A DNA stretch of 7,622 nt. Source: an uncultured Oscillospiraceae bacterium (GTDB lineage Bacteria > Bacillota_A > Clostridia > Oscillospirales > Oscillospiraceae). The notes beneath the pieces were generated by a model. The model was not told where the DNA came from and did no database searches. It saw only the letters and a list, made by a program, of their open reading frames with translations. The stretch is taken from assembly GCA_947631215.1 (NCBI GenBank), contig CANRKN010000094.1:1-7622 (forward strand). Reading direction: 5' to 3'. Position 1 is the first letter of the stretch. Every line of letters starts with the position of its first letter. Made by a program: the position numbers and the translations under genes. This document shows, in pieces, positions 1 to 7,622 of the stretch.

Positions 1-117
1 CTTCTCAAAATCCCAGAACGGTGTGTTCAGGTCTACCCATTCATATTCGTCGTCATGGGGTGTTATACCATTGGCGCACATGGTGGGTTTCCTCTTTGCC
101 TTGATATTTTCAACCAT
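1..117 (-). CDS. 5' end of an unidentified protein gene, cut by the window edge
   Basis: The frame is open from an ATG at 117-115 to the left edge, giving 39 residues with no stop. The ATG directly follows the relaxase stop codon (TGA then ATG, no gap). It has a ribosome site, AAGGAGAG, seven bases upstream inside the end of the relaxase gene, so it looks like the third gene of the mobilization operon and is probably translationally coupled. A second possible start is Met13 (MCANGI...), preceded by GAGGAA at good spacing. The visible part has a short basic start (KAKRKP) followed by an acidic, aromatic stretch (HDDEYEWVDL, then PFWDFEK). I do not recognise the family and assign no function. 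The reading frame and start are well supported; the identity is not. Confidence 0.6.
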   Translation of the reverse strand, partial: MVENIKAKRKPTMCANGITPHDDEYEWVDLNTPFWDFEK

Positions 118-1587
118 TCAACGCTCTCCTTTTTCAACTTTCTTCTCCTGGGTAGTGACCGGCTGACCGCGCTGTTCCAGTGCCACATTGACGTGGTGCC
201 GGACCTGCAGCAGCTTCGTGAGATCGTCCCGCAGGGGTTTGTACTTGGCATAGGCCGCCTCATGCTCCCGCGTCAGCGTTTCCATCTCCCGTTGCCAAGC
301 GGAGATGGGCAGCTTGCCGTCCGGCGTGAAAGCGTCCGTCAGCTTGCGCCGGGCCATATAAAACTGCCGCAGCTCGCTTTCATGCTCCTGCCTGTACTTC
401 TCCCGCTGGCCCTTCCAACGGATGCCGGTCATCTCGTCGAAGATAGGCTTTAGGCGGGCGTAGTTCTCCGCCTGCTGGAGCAGGTCCTTCAGCTCTTTCC
501 GGCGCTTGTTGGATGCGTCCATTTCCGATTTCAGCCCAGACACTTGGCTGTTGAGCTCGGCAACACGTTCTTCCATCGCTTCCACCGTGAACAGCCTGTT
601 CTCCATGATGTAGTTGTGGGCTTCCACAAACTGCTTCAGGTTGTTGAGCTTCGCTTTCCGGCTCCACGCTCCGGCGTTTCGTATGGCGATGTAATCGCCC
701 AGAAGCTGGCCCAGGTTGGGCTGCTGGGGCTGGGACAGCTCCTGCTTGACCTCCTTCAGCCAGTCCAGCAACGTGGCGATCTTCTTCCGCAGACTGCGGA
801 TGGCCGCGTTGGTAGAGCGAATCCAGCGGTTGAGATCGCCCTTGTCGGTAGGGATGCCCTTCGCCTCCATCTGCCGGACGGCGGGACCCTCGTGGACCGT
901 CGGTATCTGGTCGATCCCTTGGCGCGCATAAGAGCGGTGGTCGATCCTACAATCCAAACCTTTTTCCTCAAACTTGGCGTTGCACAGCGCAGCCCAGGCC
1001 GCCCGCCAGGATTCCAGCCGCTCCGGGCTGCCCCAATCGGTGGTGGGTACAGCGTCAAAGGTCGCCTTGCCATTCTCGTCAAGGATACGGTTGCCGTTCT
1101 CGTCCAAGTGGTAGACGCGGTGCTGCTTGTATCCCCATTTCCCATTCTCCTTCAATGGCCGGATGGGACAGAGAATATGGAAATGGGGATTTTGTATCTC
1201 CTTGTCCGGCTTATGGATGGCGAGGTCCGCGATCATACCCCGACTGACAAGCTGCTCCGATACAAATTGCCTTGCAAGCGCGATGTTCTCCTCTAGGGAA
1301 AACTCGTCCTGCAAGGCAATGTCAAAGCTGTATGCAAGCTGGGCGTCTTTGTTCCGCTCCACCTGCTCCAAGGCGTTCCAGAGCGTCTGCCGGTCCGCGT
1401 ATTCTGGCGGGGCATTTGGCGGGAGAAGTATCTCGGAACATATCACGCCTTTCTTTTTACTGTAGTCGCTGGTCTCGCCGTAGTATTCGCTGTAAAGTTT
1501 CTCTCCGGCGCGGTAGGCGGCGGAGGCGATGGCAGACTGACCGGCGTTGCGCTTGATCTGGGTGACATGAAAATGGTAAAGGGCCAT
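118..1587 (-). CDS. MobA/MobL-family (MOBQ) relaxase
   Basis: This is a conjugative relaxase of 489 aa. Relaxases of this family nick one strand at oriT, stay covalently bound to the 5' end through a tyrosine, and pilot the strand into the recipient. The N-terminus (MALYHFHVTQI, then SAIASAAYRAGEK) carries the probable catalytic Tyr25. The metal-binding histidine cluster is seen as H125 followed by NPHFH (residues 133-137) and IRP at 142-144. A DHRSYARQG motif at 216-224 is also typical of MobA/MobL proteins. Residues after about 260 are helical and charged, with a likely coiled coil at about 335-405; no primase or helicase domain is visible. The ATG directly follows the stop of the DUF3847 gene (TAA then ATG) with GGGGAGG upstream, implying coupled translation. 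The matching oriT-like sequence lies about 450 bp upstream of the start. No truncation or frameshift is visible. Confidence 0.93.
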   Translation of the reverse strand: MALYHFHVTQIKRNAGQSAIASAAYRAGEKLYSEYYGETSDYSKKKGVICSEILLPPNAPPEYADRQTLWNALEQVERNKDAQLAYSFDIALQDEFSLEENIALARQFVSEQLVSRGMIADLAIHKPDKEIQNPHFHILCPIRPLKENGKWGYKQHRVYHLDENGNRILDENGKATFDAVPTTDWGSPERLESWRAAWAALCNAKFEEKGLDCRIDHRSYARQGIDQIPTVHEGPAVRQMEAKGIPTDKGDLNRWIRSTNAAIRSLRKKIATLLDWLKEVKQELSQPQQPNLGQLLGDYIAIRNAGAWSRKAKLNNLKQFVEAHNYIMENRLFTVEAMEERVAELNSQVSGLKSEMDASNKRRKELKDLLQQAENYARLKPIFDEMTGIRWKGQREKYRQEHESELRQFYMARRKLTDAFTPDGKLPISAWQREMETLTREHEAAYAKYKPLRDDLTKLLQVRHHVNVALEQRGQPVTTQEKKVEKGER

Positions 1588-1878
1588 TTACAAATCCTCC
1601 CCGTGCAGCGTCCCATGGATAACGGCCTGAGCTTCCGGCAGAGAAAGTATCTGCTCCATGAGGGAGTAAAACGGCACTTCCTCCATGCTCTTGATCTCCG
1701 GGACGATGCTCTCCACGGCGGCCCCGCGGGTGATAAGCCGGTGCGCCCGTGCGGTCCGCTCGGCCTTGCTCAGATACTTTGCTCGGTTCTCTAGCCGTTC
1801 CAGTCGATGCTGGTATTGTTCCAATCGGATGATGTCTTTTTCTTGCTCAGCCAGTAATTGCTCTCTGGTTTTCTCCAT
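1588..1878 (-). CDS. DUF3847-family mobilization accessory protein
   Basis: This small protein of 96 aa matches what I know of the DUF3847 family, usually found directly upstream of MobA/MobL relaxases in mobile elements of Firmicutes. The first half (residues 1-38) is a charged, heptad-like helix rich in Glu, Gln, Arg and Leu, suggesting a short coiled coil. The second half has the basic segment KAERTARAHRLITRGAA (about 38-54), followed by a helix including FYSLMEQILSLP. The basic centre could contact DNA or the relaxase, by analogy with MobC-like accessory factors, but that role is inference. The start is set by a strong AGGAGG six bases upstream of the ATG. The stop TAA abuts the relaxase ATG, so the two are very likely co-transcribed and co-translated. 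The family call rests on memory of its pattern and context. Confidence 0.8.
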   Translation of the reverse strand: MEKTREQLLAEQEKDIIRLEQYQHRLERLENRAKYLSKAERTARAHRLITRGAAVESIVPEIKSMEEVPFYSLMEQILSLPEAQAVIHGTLHGEDL

Positions 1879-1903
1879 AGAATTCCTCCTAAATCAATAA
1901 TTC

Positions 1904-1982
1904 CTGCCGCCAGCAGGCAGCAGGGGGATAGACGCGCAAGCGTCGCAAGGGGGCCGCCCCTTGACCGGAGCAACAGCGACGC
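1904..1982 (-). promoter_or_regulatory. Structured leader upstream of the mobilization genes
   Basis: This non-coding stretch between the terminator and the DUF3847 ribosome site is full of short perfect inverted repeats. Pairs seen: 1940-1946 with 1976-1982 (7 bp); 1946-1952 with 1957-1963 (7 bp, 4-nt loop, CAAGGGG/CCCCTTG); 1931-1935 with 1940-1944 (5 bp, GCAA loop on the plus strand); and 1904-1908 with 1916-1920 (5 bp). The 1940-1946 arm can pair either with 1976-1982 or with 1931-1935, so two folds compete. This could be an RNA leader controlling mob expression or a set of DNA sites for the mobilization proteins. No convincing -10/-35 pair is visible inside it. The pairings are read directly from sequence; the function is inference. 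Confidence 0.45.
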
Positions 1983-2015
1983 AAAAACAGCCCGGACATT
2001 CGTGTGTCCGGGCTG
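1983..2015 (-). terminator. Rho-independent terminator after the defence operon
   Basis: A perfect 11-bp GC-rich stem (1988-1998 with 2005-2015, CAGCCCGGACA/TGTCCGGGCTG) closes a 6-nt loop. On the minus strand it is followed at once by TTTTT (1987-1983). The plus-strand side has no T-run, so it acts on leftward transcription. It lies about 70 bp after the stop codon of the helicase-nuclease gene, beyond the oriT repeats, and would separate the defence transcript from the mobilization genes. If the mob genes are transcribed from within the oriT region, it would instead work as an attenuator for them. Confidence 0.85.
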
Positions 2016-2027
2016 CTGCCTCGCAGA

Positions 2028-2083
2028 GCGCACATACATGGTCGTCAGACCATGTATAGAAGTGCGCCCTTTGTTTCAAAGGG
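2028..2083 (+). other. Probable origin of transfer (oriT), RSF1010/pIP501-like nick region
   Basis: A perfect inverted repeat (2034-2042 with 2049-2057, ATACATGGT/ACCATGTAT, extendable by C2043-G2048 to a 10-bp stem with loop GTCA) is followed within a few bases by AAGTGCGCCCTT at 2060-2071. This has the layout of MOBQ origins of transfer: inverted repeat, then a core resembling TAAGTGCGCCCT as in RSF1010 and pIP501. By that analogy the plus strand is nicked, probably around GTGCG/CCCT (2066/2067). An outer 6-bp arm (GCGCAC 2028-2033 with GTGCGC 2062-2067) extends the cruciform over the nick core. A second perfect repeat (2067-2073 with 2077-2083, CCCTTTG/CAAAGGG, 3-nt loop) follows immediately. 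The MOBQ relaxase encoded nearby makes a cognate site expected. The nick position itself is inferred. Confidence 0.8.
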
Positions 2084-2087
2084 ATGA

Positions 2088-5000
2088 TTATTGGTCCTTA
2101 AAGCATTGATCCACCAGCGCCTGCAGCGTGCTGCTCTTGGCCGCCTCCGCGGCGTCGGCCTGGGCGAAGTGGGTCGTCGCTTTTTTCATATCCTCATCAA
2201 ATCCCAGTATGTAGTTTGTGGCGATCAGGTATATGATCCGTGTCGGTGCCATGCCGTAGACCTGCCTTTCCAGGATGTGGCGGATGCGCTCCCTGTCGTC
2301 TGGGAAGAGCTGGCGCATCTTCTCGCTCCGATAGAGCCGCTTGACGATCTCGGTGATGTAGAGGCCGGACTTCATATAGAGGTCGGCGAAAGTGTTGTCC
2401 GGGTCATCGAAGCAGCCGGGATTCTCTGCCTCCAGCTCATCCACCATCTTGACCACCACCCACCGGGGCGTGAAGATCTGGTTGGTCTTCTGGGGCGGGA
2501 TGTAGTCGAATATATCCTCCTCCCGGCTCTCGTCGAAATAGTCGGCCAGTTCCCGCTTCTTTTTCAGAAACTCCCGGATAGAGTCGTTGAACACCACCTC
2601 GTCGAAGAGGTGCCCGGCGAAATGCTCCGTTACGCCAGTCTCCGGGTCCGTATAGTCCCCGCCGTCCCGCAGGAAACGGAAATCGTCCTCGGTGATACCG
2701 GTCACGTCCAGGAAAACGTTATCCTCCGTGTAGTCGTCGAAGTTAGCCAGGGTAAGCTCGTCGTCCCCGTAGGCCATGATGAAGCTGGGGATGGTGCGGG
2801 CAAAGCCCCGCAGGTGGGCGCGGACATCCTCCTCGATGGTGCGTTTCTCGCTCTCCGCCTTGTGCTTTTCCAGCTGCTCGACCAGCTCTTTGGGCTTCTC
2901 CTCGATGGTCCTCTGGGCTTGCTGCATGGCGGAATCCGTAAAGACCTTCAGCGCGTCCGCGATGGCGGCACTGTACTCATCCTCGGCCTTCTGTATCTCC
3001 GCCTCGCTCTCCGCGGACTGGCGTTTGCGCTCCAGCTCCACCCTGGCGATATTGGTCTGCTGGCGGTAATCGTCCTCCAGCTTCTGAAAGCTGGCGTCCA
3101 CTTCCCGCTCCACTTGTTTTTCCACGCGGGTCCGCACGCCCGGCTTCACGTCATAGGCGTCCGCTGCCGGCTCCACGGTCTTCTGTTTCACCGCCGTCTT
3201 CACGGCCGTCACCATGTCCTGCAGCCGCTTCCCTATATCGTCCGGTCCAGCCGCGCCGAGACTGTCCAGGCTGTCCTGGATATCCGCCTGCATATCCTCG
3301 TAAACCTTGGGTCCGAACACGTCCTGGGTCCGCCCGATGACGATGGCGCCGGGTATCTCCACCTCGCCCTCGCCGTTCACAGGCACTTCGCCCATGTGGT
3401 CCAGAGAATCCCTCTTGTTCTTCTTCGGGTCCTCCTGAGCGGGGGTGAGCTTCTCCACGATCTGGCGCACGATGCCGGGCGCGCCGAAGATGTTGGTGAT
3501 GTTTTTGAACAGGAAGTTGGACATGAAGCCGTGGCGGACCACCTCCTGACTTTTCAGCCGCCGGGGTATGGACAGCACCGCCTTGGCGTCCAGCTCCACC
3601 ATTTTGCCTTCCTCGTCCTCGCCCAGGACGGGGAAGAAGTTCAGGAGCCTCCGGATGTTCTTCTCCCGGTCCTCCCCAGTGCCCCGCCCGGAGGCGGTCT
3701 CCGGGGACAGGTTGTTGGCGAACTCATCAAAGATGATGAGCGTCCGCGCCGGGTCGAAGTCGAAAACGTAAGAGTTCTGCTTTCGGAACCGCTGGCCGCC
3801 GCTGGTGAAGATGCAGGGATTCTGGGCCCGGAACGCCGCCTGCATATAGGACGCCGGGCTTTGCAGATTGCAGAGCATCAGCACGCCGGTCCACTCCGGG
3901 ATGGTCACGCCCACGGTGAGCTGCCCCACGCTTAAGGTGATGGTCCGCTCATGTGTAGCGATGGCCGTTTTCACCCGGTCATAGGCCGCCGCTGTTGCCG
4001 CGTCCTCGTCGCTCTCCCGGCCGTCTCCCGCCGCGATGACGATCTCGCAGTCCCCGAAGGCATAGGCAAACTCGTCGTCCTTCAGCAGCTTGGCCAGGGC
4101 CTTGACGGACGCCACCCGGTTCAGTATCCACAGCGTGTGGGCCAGCTCCCGCCGCAGCTCCGGTGTGGAGAAGGGGTACTTCTCCTGGGTCGTCAGCGCG
4201 TGGAGGAACCTGCGCACCTCCGCCTCATGGACGAACTTGCCGCTCTCGTTGGTGGCGAAAAACTCATTCAGATCGAAAGCGAAATCCACCGTGTCCCCGT
4301 CGTCGGAGAGATCCACGCCTAGCTTAAGCTGGTCATAGATCATGCCCGACATCTGATAGGTGAACATGTTCATCCGGGGCAGGGCCTCGTAGGGGTTGTA
4401 GTCGTCCCCCGTCCAGTTTTCCTTTGCCTCCTGCTCGTCGGCATAGGACCAGTTGTAGATCTGCTCACTGGAAAACTGGTCGCTGGCAAGCTGCTTGAAG
4501 GGTGTGCCGGAGAGATACAGCGTGTGTCTGCGCTTGATGTTTCGGAAGGCTCGCTCTGTGCGCATGGTGTCCACGCCCTCGTGGGCCTCGTCGATGATGA
4601 GAAGGTCGAACTGCATATCGCTGATCCACTTCAGCTTGTCATACTGCCCGCCGAAGTAGACCGAGCCCTTCAGCCCCTGCAGGGATTCAAAGGCCACGAT
4701 GCCCCGCTCGATGCCCCGGCTCAGTGCCGAGATATATTCCTCCCTAGTCTGGACTCCGGCCTGGCCCCGCAGGGCGTCCGTGTCCGAAACGAAGGCCATT
4801 CTATCCCGCCAGCCGATGAACTTGCGGAAATCCTCCGCCCAGGAGTTGGCGATGCTGGGCCGGTTGGTGACGATGAGCACCCGGTCCAGCTCCATCTTTT
4901 CGATCAAGTCATAGCTGGCCAGGGTCTTCCCGAACCGGGGCTTGGCGTTCCAGAGAAACTCCGTTCCGCCGCTCTCAAAGTAGTCCGCCGTCATGGCCAC

Positions 5001-5402
5001 GGCCTCCGCCTGCTCTTTTCGCAGGTCGTAGGTACATGCCTCCGGCCAGGAGGTCTCCCGCCGGGCAAAGCTACGGAACAGCTCCTCCGAGCGGGGACCG
5101 TCTATCTGGAACCACTCGGTTTTCGGTTCCCGGGGGATGTGGTGCTGGCTCTGGAGAAAGTCGTGGAATTCATGGTCCGTGAAATACTCCCCGGAGCCGT
5201 CCTTATACATGGCGTTGTCCGACCAGGCCAGCGCCCAGCGGATGTCAGCCGTGTGGGTCTGCTGGCCGATGCGCTTTTGGACGGACTGCTTTTCCGTGTA
5301 CCCGATCTTCGTCCAGCCGTCGTGATAGCTGACGCCCGGCGTGTTGTAGGCGTATATCATGGGGACGACCCGGACGTTAGGCGCAATGTTGGGCACGCTC
5401 AT
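2088..5402 (-). CDS. GIY-YIG-like nuclease / DEAH helicase with methyltransferase-like C-terminus (restriction subunit)
   Basis: This multidomain protein of 1104 aa is probably the DNA translocase and cleavage subunit of a restriction-like system. The N-terminus (about 13-115) resembles T5orf172/GIY-YIG nucleases: MIYAYN (15-20), TKIGYT (31-36), R44, and EWF (96-98). A superfamily 2 helicase core follows: Walker A AKPRFGKT (153-160), DEAH (271-274), SGTP (298-301), a motif V-like segment (490-504, SVGQLTVGVTIPEW) and a motif VI-like QAAFRAQNP (521-529). Residues about 755-865 are strongly charged and heptad-like, a likely coiled coil. The C-terminus (about 975-1075) has methyltransferase-like sequence: QIFTPRWVVVKM, a degenerate motif I (FADLYMKSGLYITEI) and QVYGMAPTRIIYL. 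It ends without an NPPY motif. The ATG overlaps the upstream methyltransferase stop by one base and has AAGGAG eight bases upstream, so the two are coupled. The nuclease call is less certain than the helicase. A Type ISP- or Type III-like mechanism is inference. Confidence 0.88.
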   Translation of the reverse strand: MSVPNIAPNVRVVPMIYAYNTPGVSYHDGWTKIGYTEKQSVQKRIGQQTHTADIRWALAWSDNAMYKDGSGEYFTDHEFHDFLQSQHHIPREPKTEWFQIDGPRSEELFRSFARRETSWPEACTYDLRKEQAEAVAMTADYFESGGTEFLWNAKPRFGKTLASYDLIEKMELDRVLIVTNRPSIANSWAEDFRKFIGWRDRMAFVSDTDALRGQAGVQTREEYISALSRGIERGIVAFESLQGLKGSVYFGGQYDKLKWISDMQFDLLIIDEAHEGVDTMRTERAFRNIKRRHTLYLSGTPFKQLASDQFSSEQIYNWSYADEQEAKENWTGDDYNPYEALPRMNMFTYQMSGMIYDQLKLGVDLSDDGDTVDFAFDLNEFFATNESGKFVHEAEVRRFLHALTTQEKYPFSTPELRRELAHTLWILNRVASVKALAKLLKDDEFAYAFGDCEIVIAAGDGRESDEDAATAAAYDRVKTAIATHERTITLSVGQLTVGVTIPEWTGVLMLCNLQSPASYMQAAFRAQNPCIFTSGGQRFRKQNSYVFDFDPARTLIIFDEFANNLSPETASGRGTGEDREKNIRRLLNFFPVLGEDEEGKMVELDAKAVLSIPRRLKSQEVVRHGFMSNFLFKNITNIFGAPGIVRQIVEKLTPAQEDPKKNKRDSLDHMGEVPVNGEGEVEIPGAIVIGRTQDVFGPKVYEDMQADIQDSLDSLGAAGPDDIGKRLQDMVTAVKTAVKQKTVEPAADAYDVKPGVRTRVEKQVEREVDASFQKLEDDYRQQTNIARVELERKRQSAESEAEIQKAEDEYSAAIADALKVFTDSAMQQAQRTIEEKPKELVEQLEKHKAESEKRTIEEDVRAHLRGFARTIPSFIMAYGDDELTLANFDDYTEDNVFLDVTGITEDDFRFLRDGGDYTDPETGVTEHFAGHLFDEVVFNDSIREFLKKKRELADYFDESREEDIFDYIPPQKTNQIFTPRWVVVKMVDELEAENPGCFDDPDNTFADLYMKSGLYITEIVKRLYRSEKMRQLFPDDRERIRHILERQVYGMAPTRIIYLIATNYILGFDEDMKKATTHFAQADAAEAAKSSTLQALVDQCFKDQ

Positions 5403-7366
5403 CAGCTCATCTCCTTCACGTGGGATTCGATGAACGCGATCTCCGCTTCATCCAGCCCATACTTGGCATAGAGCTGCCTATCGATCTCCGGGATGGACCT
5501 GGACCAGTCGATGTCGGATGCGGGGGTGAAGTCCTGGAGGGGGATAAATCTCCATCTTTCCGGGGGATTATCCTGCGTTATTTTCAGGATACCCAATAAA
5601 CATCTCGCAAACTTTGACTTTATGTATTTTAATGCAGATGTTGCTTCTAATTCAGCTGCAAAAGCCCCTATGCCAATAAAAGATTGTGTATACCCAATAC
5701 CAGGTCCCAATATAAACGGTTCCGCAATAATCCTTACCGGTGTTTCACAAAGATTTCCCGCGCCTCCATTCGATTTGGAAACCATTATCTTATGTTTGAA
5801 TAGATTTCCATTGTCCTCGATATAATTTTTGTCTACCCATTTCTTTACGCGTTTTTGTCCTGTTCCCTCCAGGCCAAAAATTGCGATCATTTCTTGGCGA
5901 TCTTCATTGGTATTTTGAAATATTGGTAGTTTATTGAACGCACTACTCACAATTCGTCGTTCATTTCCCTCGCTGCTTATTACTGACCTAAGCTGTGGGT
6001 AATCTTGATATAAACTATCAAGGTTAAGGCGGTTCTGGAGTATCATTATATCTGGCAAAGAACTCTCTTGGACGTATTTGTGCATTTTTGCAGACAGCGA
6101 TCGTATTTCTTCATATTGGGAAAATACTTCAATAGCGCCAAAACTCTTTGTAGCATCTCGATAGGATATAGAAATCCCACCAGTAATTCGCGTCCCCTGG
6201 AAATAGTGCCCACTATCCTGTGCGTAATCAAGCACAGTGAAATGCTCATCATTTAGCATTTTTTCATTCCACGCTTTTGGTGTTTTTCCAGCATTGAATA
6301 AGAAACGAGCAGGTGTTATAAGCAAAACCTTGTCAGAAATCAAATAGGCGGCATCCATAAAGCTGTTATACACCGGCTTATCTGACGTTCCTTCTGTTTC
6401 TTCCTGATACGGCGGATTGCCAATGATAAAATTAAACTTCATCTTTCCCGTCCCCCTTCTTAACTCCTGGAATTCAACGCTGGTTTTCTTCCGCCAGTCA
6501 TAGATCCGGCAATAGGGCTGTGTCTTTTCTTCCTTATCCGGGAAACCCATCTTTTCAAAAAAGTCAAACTGGAAGCCCTCCTCCTCGGGCTTCCGATACG
6601 GGATGGTGTATGTGAGCCCATCCATTTGCCACAGGTTCCAAACGATGACGTTGGCGATGGTCTCATATTCCTGCTTCGTCGGCTTTCGCTTCCACCGGCT
6701 GGACAGATATTCCTCAAAGGTCATCAGCAGGTTCAAACGGGCAATGAGCAGGTTGTCACCCTGAAACTCATAGCCATAGGTTGCCTGGAACGCCCGCAGA
6801 GACCATTGCAGCCACTCTTCCTCCGTGTCGGTGTTCTCGCTCACCACCCGCAGCTTCCGGTCCAGCAGGCCGGTCCGCCGCTCCAGGGGGATGATCTCGC
6901 CGTTGGAGACGTCGTACCGGCTCGCCAAAAACGGCGCCTCGCCGCATGTGATCTCCATGCGCCGGTCGTCCACGTACCGCTTCCAGTTCTTCCGCTTGGA
7001 AAACCCCACCCGGTTGGTGGGCTCGTCGTCCTTAAAAAACGTGTCCGGCCGGCCGAACCACACCTCGTCGGCATAGTCGCACATTTTCGCGCAGACCCAG
7101 TTGGGTGTAAATACTTCAGCGTGCTGCCGGGTGCGGGCGGACTGCTGCTCCAGGGCCTTCCGTGCCCGGTTCTTGATGACGCCGGAGCGCTCGCCGGTGA
7201 TCAGCTCGGCCCTGATCTCCCTGTCCCGCTGATAGCCGGGGCCCAGGTCGGTATAGGCGTCCGTCGCCCAGAGGATGTGCGCCTTGGTCGTTCTATCGGC
7301 CAGGAGCCTGTCCAGCAGACCGAGGGAGTTGATCCGCAGCAATTCATCTTGTATCCCGATGATCAA
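5402..7366 (-). CDS. N6-adenine DNA methyltransferase with C-terminal specificity region (Eco57I-like)
   Basis: This 654-aa protein is a probable modification and target-recognition subunit that transfers a methyl group from S-adenosylmethionine to adenine in DNA. It has EVFTPNWVCAKM (84-95), the FTP segment that precedes the catalytic core in many N6-adenine methyltransferases. An unusual motif I, EITCGEAPFL (138-147), follows, then GYEFQGDNLLIARLNLL (198-214) and the catalytic motif IV NPPY (317-320). Residues about 320-610 probably hold the target recognition domain, and the C-terminus ends in helical, charged sequence. The start is TTG at 7366-7364: the next in-frame Met is residue 95, and GGAGGAGG lies eight bases upstream. 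The gene leads an operon with the nuclease-helicase (one-base stop/start overlap). Base composition changes sharply: about 5550-6480 is AT-rich (several 60-base lines at 32-38% GC), while the 5' part and the partner gene reach about 62-65%. No frameshift is seen. A separate nuclease domain was not recognised in it. Confidence 0.9.
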   Translation of the reverse strand: MIIGIQDELLRINSLGLLDRLLADRTTKAHILWATDAYTDLGPGYQRDREIRAELITGERSGVIKNRARKALEQQSARTRQHAEVFTPNWVCAKMCDYADEVWFGRPDTFFKDDEPTNRVGFSKRKNWKRYVDDRRMEITCGEAPFLASRYDVSNGEIIPLERRTGLLDRKLRVVSENTDTEEEWLQWSLRAFQATYGYEFQGDNLLIARLNLLMTFEEYLSSRWKRKPTKQEYETIANVIVWNLWQMDGLTYTIPYRKPEEEGFQFDFFEKMGFPDKEEKTQPYCRIYDWRKKTSVEFQELRRGTGKMKFNFIIGNPPYQEETEGTSDKPVYNSFMDAAYLISDKVLLITPARFLFNAGKTPKAWNEKMLNDEHFTVLDYAQDSGHYFQGTRITGGISISYRDATKSFGAIEVFSQYEEIRSLSAKMHKYVQESSLPDIMILQNRLNLDSLYQDYPQLRSVISSEGNERRIVSSAFNKLPIFQNTNEDRQEMIAIFGLEGTGQKRVKKWVDKNYIEDNGNLFKHKIMVSKSNGGAGNLCETPVRIIAEPFILGPGIGYTQSFIGIGAFAAELEATSALKYIKSKFARCLLGILKITQDNPPERWRFIPLQDFTPASDIDWSRSIPEIDRQLYAKYGLDEAEIAFIESHVKEMS

Positions 7367-7371
7367 AAAGC

Positions 7372-7407
7372 GATCCTCCTCCGATCCGAAAAGACCGCAG
7401 GAGGATC
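7372..7407 (-). promoter_or_regulatory. Hairpin covering the ribosome-binding site of the methyltransferase gene
   Basis: In the leader of the methyltransferase mRNA, a perfect 9-bp inverted repeat (7399-7407 with 7372-7380; GATCCTCCT/AGGAGGATC as transcribed) closes an 18-nt loop. The 3' arm contains the AGGAGG Shine-Dalgarno sequence used by the TTG start at 7366. If folded, it would hide the ribosome site and lower translation of the whole operon. The pairing is seen directly; regulation is inference. Confidence 0.55.
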
Positions 7408-7433
7408 AGCAAAGCTATGCCCGTTTTGCAAAT

Positions 7434-7554
7434 GTGTACTTTACCAAACTTTCCTGCGTGTTCTACATATTCGCATTATAGCATCAAAACCTGGAAACGG
7501 CAACAAATTCTGGGCTGTCTTTTCCCCTGGCTTCGACTGTCGGAAAAAGTACAC
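7434..7554. repeat. 9-bp inverted repeat pair flanking the operon promoter
   Basis: GTGTACTTT at 7434-7442 is repeated in inverse orientation as AAAGTACAC at 7546-7554. The two copies bracket the promoter, one in the transcribed leader and one about 43 bp upstream of the -35. This is the arrangement of paired operators for a looping repressor, but only two copies exist and chance cannot be excluded. Confidence 0.3.
7475..7503 (-). promoter_or_regulatory. Sigma-70/SigA-type promoter of the methyltransferase/helicase operon
   Basis: On the minus strand, TTGCCG (7503-7498) and a perfect TATAAT (7480-7475) are separated by exactly 17 bp. The predicted transcription start is near 7468, leaving a leader of about 100 nt before the TTG start. 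The surrounding DNA is AT-rich, and this is the best promoter-like match I saw in the non-coding DNA here. Confidence 0.8.
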
Positions 7555-7622
7555 CAATTCAAATTATTGAGCGGTTTATTTAATCCACCTTTTCAAACCG
7601 CCTCGCTTTCGAGTAAAACGTC

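Follow-up and report, generated by a model that had tools for sequence, protein, structure and literature searches.

The stretch analysed here, referred to as the window, comprises 7,622 nucleotides of contig CANRKN010000094.1 (assembly GCA_947631215.1) from an uncultured Oscillospiraceae bacterium, and carries two genes, P2 and P1, that follow one another in this order on the minus strand. A sequence-only reading of this DNA had described a 654-residue N6-methyltransferase gene overlapping a 1104-residue gene by one base, as the open reading frames (ORFs) bear out; the start codon of P2 is TTG and is preceded by an AGGAGG site. We interpret the pair, with a probability of roughly 70%, as an ATP-dependent restriction-modification system: P2 would read and mark a DNA site, and P1 would translocate and cut. 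Four modules are distinguished (Table 1), namely N, the nuclease-helicase; T, the tail of P1; B, the first half of P2; and C, the NPPY motif together with the recognition domain.

Table 1. Features of the window, with motif labels as we take them to apply (AF2, AlphaFold2; SF2, superfamily 2)
Feature	Position	Strand	Residues	Description and basis
P2	5402..7366	minus	654 aa	predicted N6-adenine methyltransferase with recognition domain (B+C); Pfam Eco57I, AF2 model, fold matches
P1	2088..5402	minus	1104 aa	predicted nuclease-helicase with half-methyltransferase tail (N+T); ORF, ResIII match, relatives
GIY-YIG (T5orf172) domain	5052..5366	minus	P1 about 13-117	profile and conservation
SF2 helicase	3483..5030	minus	P1 about 125-640	FGKT 157, DEAH 271, SGTP 298, AFRAQNP 523
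Linker from helicase to tail	2553..3482	minus		poorly conserved except about 855-950; putative coupler
Module T	2097..2540	minus	P1 955-1102	motif X (TNQIFTP..VV..M), motif I variant DLYMKSG (1007-1013), motif II-like QVYGMAPT
Module B	6443..7366	minus	P2 1-308	motif X (EVFTP), intact motif I EITCGEAPF (138-146), motif II YGYEFQGD (197-204)
Module C	5405..6442	minus	P2 309-654	begins MKFNFIIGNPPYQ; catalytic NPPY and recognition domain
NPPY catalytic motif	6407..6418	minus	P2 317-320
Recognition cassette	5545..6210	minus		no blastn match to locus L012; flanks 92% and 88% identical
MobA/MobL (MobQ) relaxase and DUF3847 protein	118-1878	minus		downstream of the P1/P2 pair

The GIY-YIG/T5orf172-like N-terminus proposed earlier for P1 was confirmed. 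The T5orf172 profile matches 35 of 41 family members at E <= 0.001, with the window protein exceeding the curated cut-off, and Y17, Y19, K32, G34, T36, R44, D76, E96 and W97 are invariant in all 41 N-termini of the P1 family. Full-length P1 compared with Pfam misses this domain, which is revealed by the isolated domain and its relatives. The profile match, the conserved Tyr and Arg and the top VIA matches, weak as they are, identify it as GIY-YIG; Foldseek with the P1 N-domain gave no significant match, and the nuclease role is predicted. An SF2 DEAH helicase and a partial methyltransferase tail had also been claimed for P1, and both were recovered (ResIII, helicase motifs and module T). Sequence searches of the PDB with P1, P2 and their profiles either came back empty or gave matches that were weak, unrelated or of a generic helicase kind.

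The motifs of P2 run in the order X (residues 83-90), I, II, IV and recognition domain, which we take to be the gamma-type order, and downstream of NPPY a variable region is followed by a conserved C-terminus. The AF2 model (predicted local distance difference test score 86.3) aligns over both halves with CamA, MmeI, LlaGI, BrxX and LlaBIII, with large full-chain root-mean-square deviations (7 to 11 Å). The NPPY adenine methyltransferase of the sequence-only reading thus agrees with Pfam Eco57I, the model and the fold matches, and P2 is predicted to be an N6-adenine methyltransferase carrying its own recognition domain.

In the mechanism we propose, P2 would recognise an asymmetric site and N6-methylate an adenine, and P1 would dock onto P2. 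The SF2 motor of P1 may then travel along the DNA away from unmodified sites, using ATP, and its N-terminal GIY-YIG domain may nick or cut. Defence could also proceed without DNA cutting, by a methylation-guided block of the kind proposed for BREX, in which P1 would stop phage replication and the GIY-YIG domain would have another task. BREX is a multi-gene set around PglX. Such a block seems very improbable, since the GIY-YIG motif residues are invariant in all 41 N-termini and no BREX-named genes appear in the annotation of ten plasmid loci.

For 117 loci (L011-L127), scans with profiles of module B (P2 1-304), a short form of B, module C (P2 305-654), T, TC, GIY-YIG and the helicase revealed five gene arrangements (a slash marks a gene boundary). 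The window arrangement, BC/NT, is possessed by 41 loci, plus eight cut by the locus end. B/C/NT is found in 21 (13 with a long B and eight with a short HsdM-like B), plus six cut loci, although three of the 13 long-B loci (L058, L059 and L094) could represent interrupted BC genes, with NPPY missing from their C frames. B/NTC occurs in eight loci, in four of which T is too diverged for its profile, and B/TC/N in six: the phage NatCom_35866 and plasmids of Variovorax, Rhizobium, Sphingopyxis, Mycolicibacterium and Acuticoccus. B/NT/C is restricted to two plasmids, of L. plantarum and Arthrobacter, and for the other 25 loci, which are broken or too heavily truncated, no arrangement could be assigned. 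The locus set is redundant, with L011/L107, L020/L022 and L058/L059 resembling near-copies. In L094, a Bifidobacterium longum plasmid, an IS256 family transposase gene (2633-3817) separates B from C.

In the phage NatCom_35866, a 506-residue 'DNA methyltransferase' matches the P1 tail joined to C and its 974-residue neighbour matches P1 without the tail, indicating that T is a module in its own right. We rejected the possibility that the P1 tail is vestigial, T being conserved and also fused to C (L095). The single-chain N+T+C relatives still encode B as a separate gene. Two of them, from Lactococcus lactis (L106, 2656-7014) and Staphylococcus equorum (L104, 2674-7050), possess about 170-200 additional N-terminal residues ahead of a weak GIY-YIG-like stretch; in L106 these residues give a DUF4145 match of 21.8 bits, just below the cut-off of 23.1. 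All six TC-type proteins (L095, L097-L101) have a CxxC motif, possibly a metal site, in the interval from T to NPPY, and none was found in the NT or NTC proteins of the same list.

A tree of the helicase region with 89 rows, in which L096 (P1 gene interrupted) was scored as B/C/NT, implies 16 arrangement changes, with at least eight changes of the BC/NT state forced by the starred branches. A repeat tree without 16 doubtful, cut or long-branched rows gave nine changes in all, at least five of them of the BC/NT state; both trees are quick ones and came with long-branch warnings. In this family, genes appear to have fused and split repeatedly at the same junction within a single protein fold, which would explain the unrelated annotation names of its pieces ('Type II methyltransferase', 'N-6 DNA methylase', 'DEAD/DEAH box helicase'). 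The recurrent joining of B to C, T to C and N to T argues that all four modules meet in one complex.

The split runs through the methyltransferase fold itself, because stand-alone B proteins lack NPPY and C frames start just ahead of it. None of the 45 B proteins without C (38 of them uncut) contains NPP[YFWH], and 24 of 38 stand-alone C frames start 8-15 residues ahead of NPPY, typically with MKFDFIIGNPPYQ. Another seven start 21-87 residues ahead, measured from the first possible start codon, and the last seven, cut or interrupted, begin inside C. A Met lies at most 9 residues ahead of the GNPP motif in 42 of the 44 rows of the P2 alignment, and NPP[YFW] is missing from 15 of 112 C frames, mostly short or interrupted ones. 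Judged by these motifs, neither B nor C alone should be able to act as a classical methyltransferase. In the composite enzyme that we envisage, B would supply the S-adenosylmethionine (AdoMet)-binding half with motifs X, I and II, and C the NPPY half with the recognition domain. T would represent a second, Lys-substituted AdoMet-type half, most likely a docking piece between motor and methyltransferase.

At the position where motif I should have its first Gly, 106 of 108 T modules carry Lys (L033 is cut short, and L103 is the sole exception), and in B this Gly is present in all 86 sequences that reach the motif, as counted by alignment. It might still be T rather than B that completes the methyltransferase, with T and C active in trans or in cis, the Lys tolerated and B serving as an accessory AdoMet sensor or regulator. 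In favour of this, the TC and NTC proteins show T and C in the canonical order, and 106 of 108 T modules retain D...K[ST]G, which is hence under selection. However, we consider this unlikely given the intact motif I of B; moreover, the window type joins B covalently to C in a chain that models as a CamA-like methyltransferase, and among the loci with 1,500 or more bases upstream, just one lacks B. The T and B profiles were aligned by hhalign over motif X only (20 columns, probability 90), five of 108 T proteins are hit in T by the short-B profile, and 11 of 97 show a TC-profile match at the start of B. Homology of T and B over motif I is therefore suggested mainly by the TC-type members and the motif order.

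B was detected in 97 of the 117 loci, and 19 of the 20 loci without it have fewer than 1,500 bases upstream. The remaining one, L038 (8001-11342), weighs against the rule that B accompanies the other modules: it has a full-length P1, a remnant of C only, at least 1,500 bases upstream and no B, and no P2 match was found in its genome. It would represent either restriction without protection or an inactive system. L016 perhaps points the same way, as B is absent despite 1,446 bases upstream; this locus has a DUF2971 gene.

It has long been asked how a restriction enzyme chooses between modification and cleavage when a single recognition domain reads the site. Within the restriction-modification reading, it is possible, though doubtful, that T replaces B at unmodified sites and thereby turns the recognition domain used for marking over to cutting, as a molecular clutch between the two activities. 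The pair would then be, equally tentatively, a naturally split adenine methyltransferase whose live half B and Lys-substituted half T compete for a shared C. Because relatives encode the live cofactor half, its altered counterpart and the catalytic half as distinct genes, each of these can be produced alone and combined with the others.

Comparison with L012, which derives from a bin labelled Akkermansia, showed P1 to be 93-100% identical per 100 residues, whereas the identity of P2 is as low as 30-42% between residues 401 and 550; P2 of L066 diverges in the same way. The cassette has a G+C content of 39.3%, against 60.8% in P1 and 58.7% in B, and the drop begins near the B/C border. A single cassette, that of P2, distinguishes the window from L012, and P1 contains no swapped counterpart. 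By these comparisons the recognition cassette is evidently exchanged between near-identical systems, and by analogy such a swap would be the trace expected of restriction-modification selected for new specificities. Cutting by P1 may use the recognition domain of P2.

Type I systems have a separate HsdS subunit with two recognition domains; no HsdS was found among the four scanned window proteins, and the recognition domain sits in P2. Type III systems combine a Mod of beta-type motif order with a Res that ends in a PD-(D/E)XK nuclease, whereas the motif order of P2 is different and P1 has its GIY-YIG domain at the N-terminus and a half-methyltransferase at the C-terminus. CamA of Clostridioides difficile is an adenine methyltransferase that is not known to have a motor or nuclease partner; the P2 model aligns with it across both halves. 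Type ISP enzymes are single chains with an Mrr-family nuclease (PMC4666363). P1/P2 share with LlaGI and LlaBIII the SF2 motor and a gamma-type N6-adenine methyltransferase with one recognition domain, and differ from them in having two chains, an N-terminal GIY-YIG domain instead of Mrr and an extra half-methyltransferase. Cleavage by Type ISP enzymes follows ATP-driven translocation and is triggered by collision. The Type ISP-like content over two chains that had been suggested for this locus stands as regards motor, methyltransferase and the two ORFs, and the single chain and Mrr nuclease that define the type are absent.

CglI-type endonucleases are described as an ATP-dependent motor with a nuclease outside Types I, ISP and III (PMC5737866); their phospholipase D (PLD) nuclease and ATPase are on separate chains, whereas P1 carries GIY-YIG on the motor chain. 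Closer by description are the systems presented as 'Type IIG-like' by Blow et al. (2016; PMC4752239): in OspHL35III a nuclease-less methyltransferase/recognition chain is accompanied by translocase and GIY-YIG on other chains, and in AchA6III a fused PLD-nuclease/translocase is apart from the methyltransferase/recognition chain. In comparison, P1 unites GIY-YIG and motor in one chain with a half-methyltransferase tail, and the methyltransferase itself is split in many relatives. A PADLOC scan covering P1, P2 and seven proteins of relatives matched the REase_MTase_IIG model PDLC03626, with 392.5 bits for a fused relative (L091) and, in parts, 51.2 bits for P1 and 88.7 for P2. This model represents a single-chain Type IIG enzyme, in which nuclease and methyltransferase are united and one recognition domain serves both cutting and marking; the window system has them on separate chains and contains B.

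P1/P2 lack features that define Types I, III, ISP and IIG, yet, from their domain content, should work like an ISP/IIG enzyme. The earlier statement that the pair matches no named restriction type holds for these features but must be qualified, as the pieces are already assigned to Type II/IIG by PADLOC, and published Type IIG-like systems include ones with a translocase and a GIY-YIG protein. A B/C/T-split methyltransferase with shifting arrangements was not found in the full-text literature searched, which is not proof of absence.

Homologues elsewhere had been anticipated, and at least 7,997 relatives of P1 exist. Among 391 sampled genomes of the class, 18 have a P1 match, which is near full length in 14 of them, and matches of any length occur in 83 plasmid and 11 phage records. 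The window matches contig C61 of genome G001 over 1913-7442 (96% identity) and L012 over 1-5544 (92%). In L012 a large serine recombinase (13759-15378), beside the relaxase, and a resolvase (5059-5820) flank the same block, one per side. Together with the relaxase adjoining the pair, these matches suggest that the P1/P2 system probably rides a mobilizable element. The relaxase, the recombinase in L012 and the plasmid records would also suit an addiction or epigenetic module that mainly keeps the mobile element in its host rather than stopping phages. We find this quite unlikely as the main role, because cassette swapping and cargo such as AbiH in relatives suit defence, although the two roles are not exclusive.

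Several other genes were observed among or beside the modules, encoding HNH, Bro-N, KilA-N, PIN, SLFN_AlbA_2, AbiH and DUF2971 (L017, L021, L023, L039, L074, L078 and L016); comparable insertions occur between the hsd genes of Type I systems. Downstream of P1, an intergenic stretch of about 170 bp (window 1911-2084) recurs elsewhere in G001 (C49 96%, C1 87% and C8 91%) and may represent a small repeat, mobile or regulatory. At its right end (7425-7622), the window matches G001 as two oppositely oriented pieces at contig ends (C61 and C63), which suggests that the boundary upstream of P2 is rearranged or repeated.
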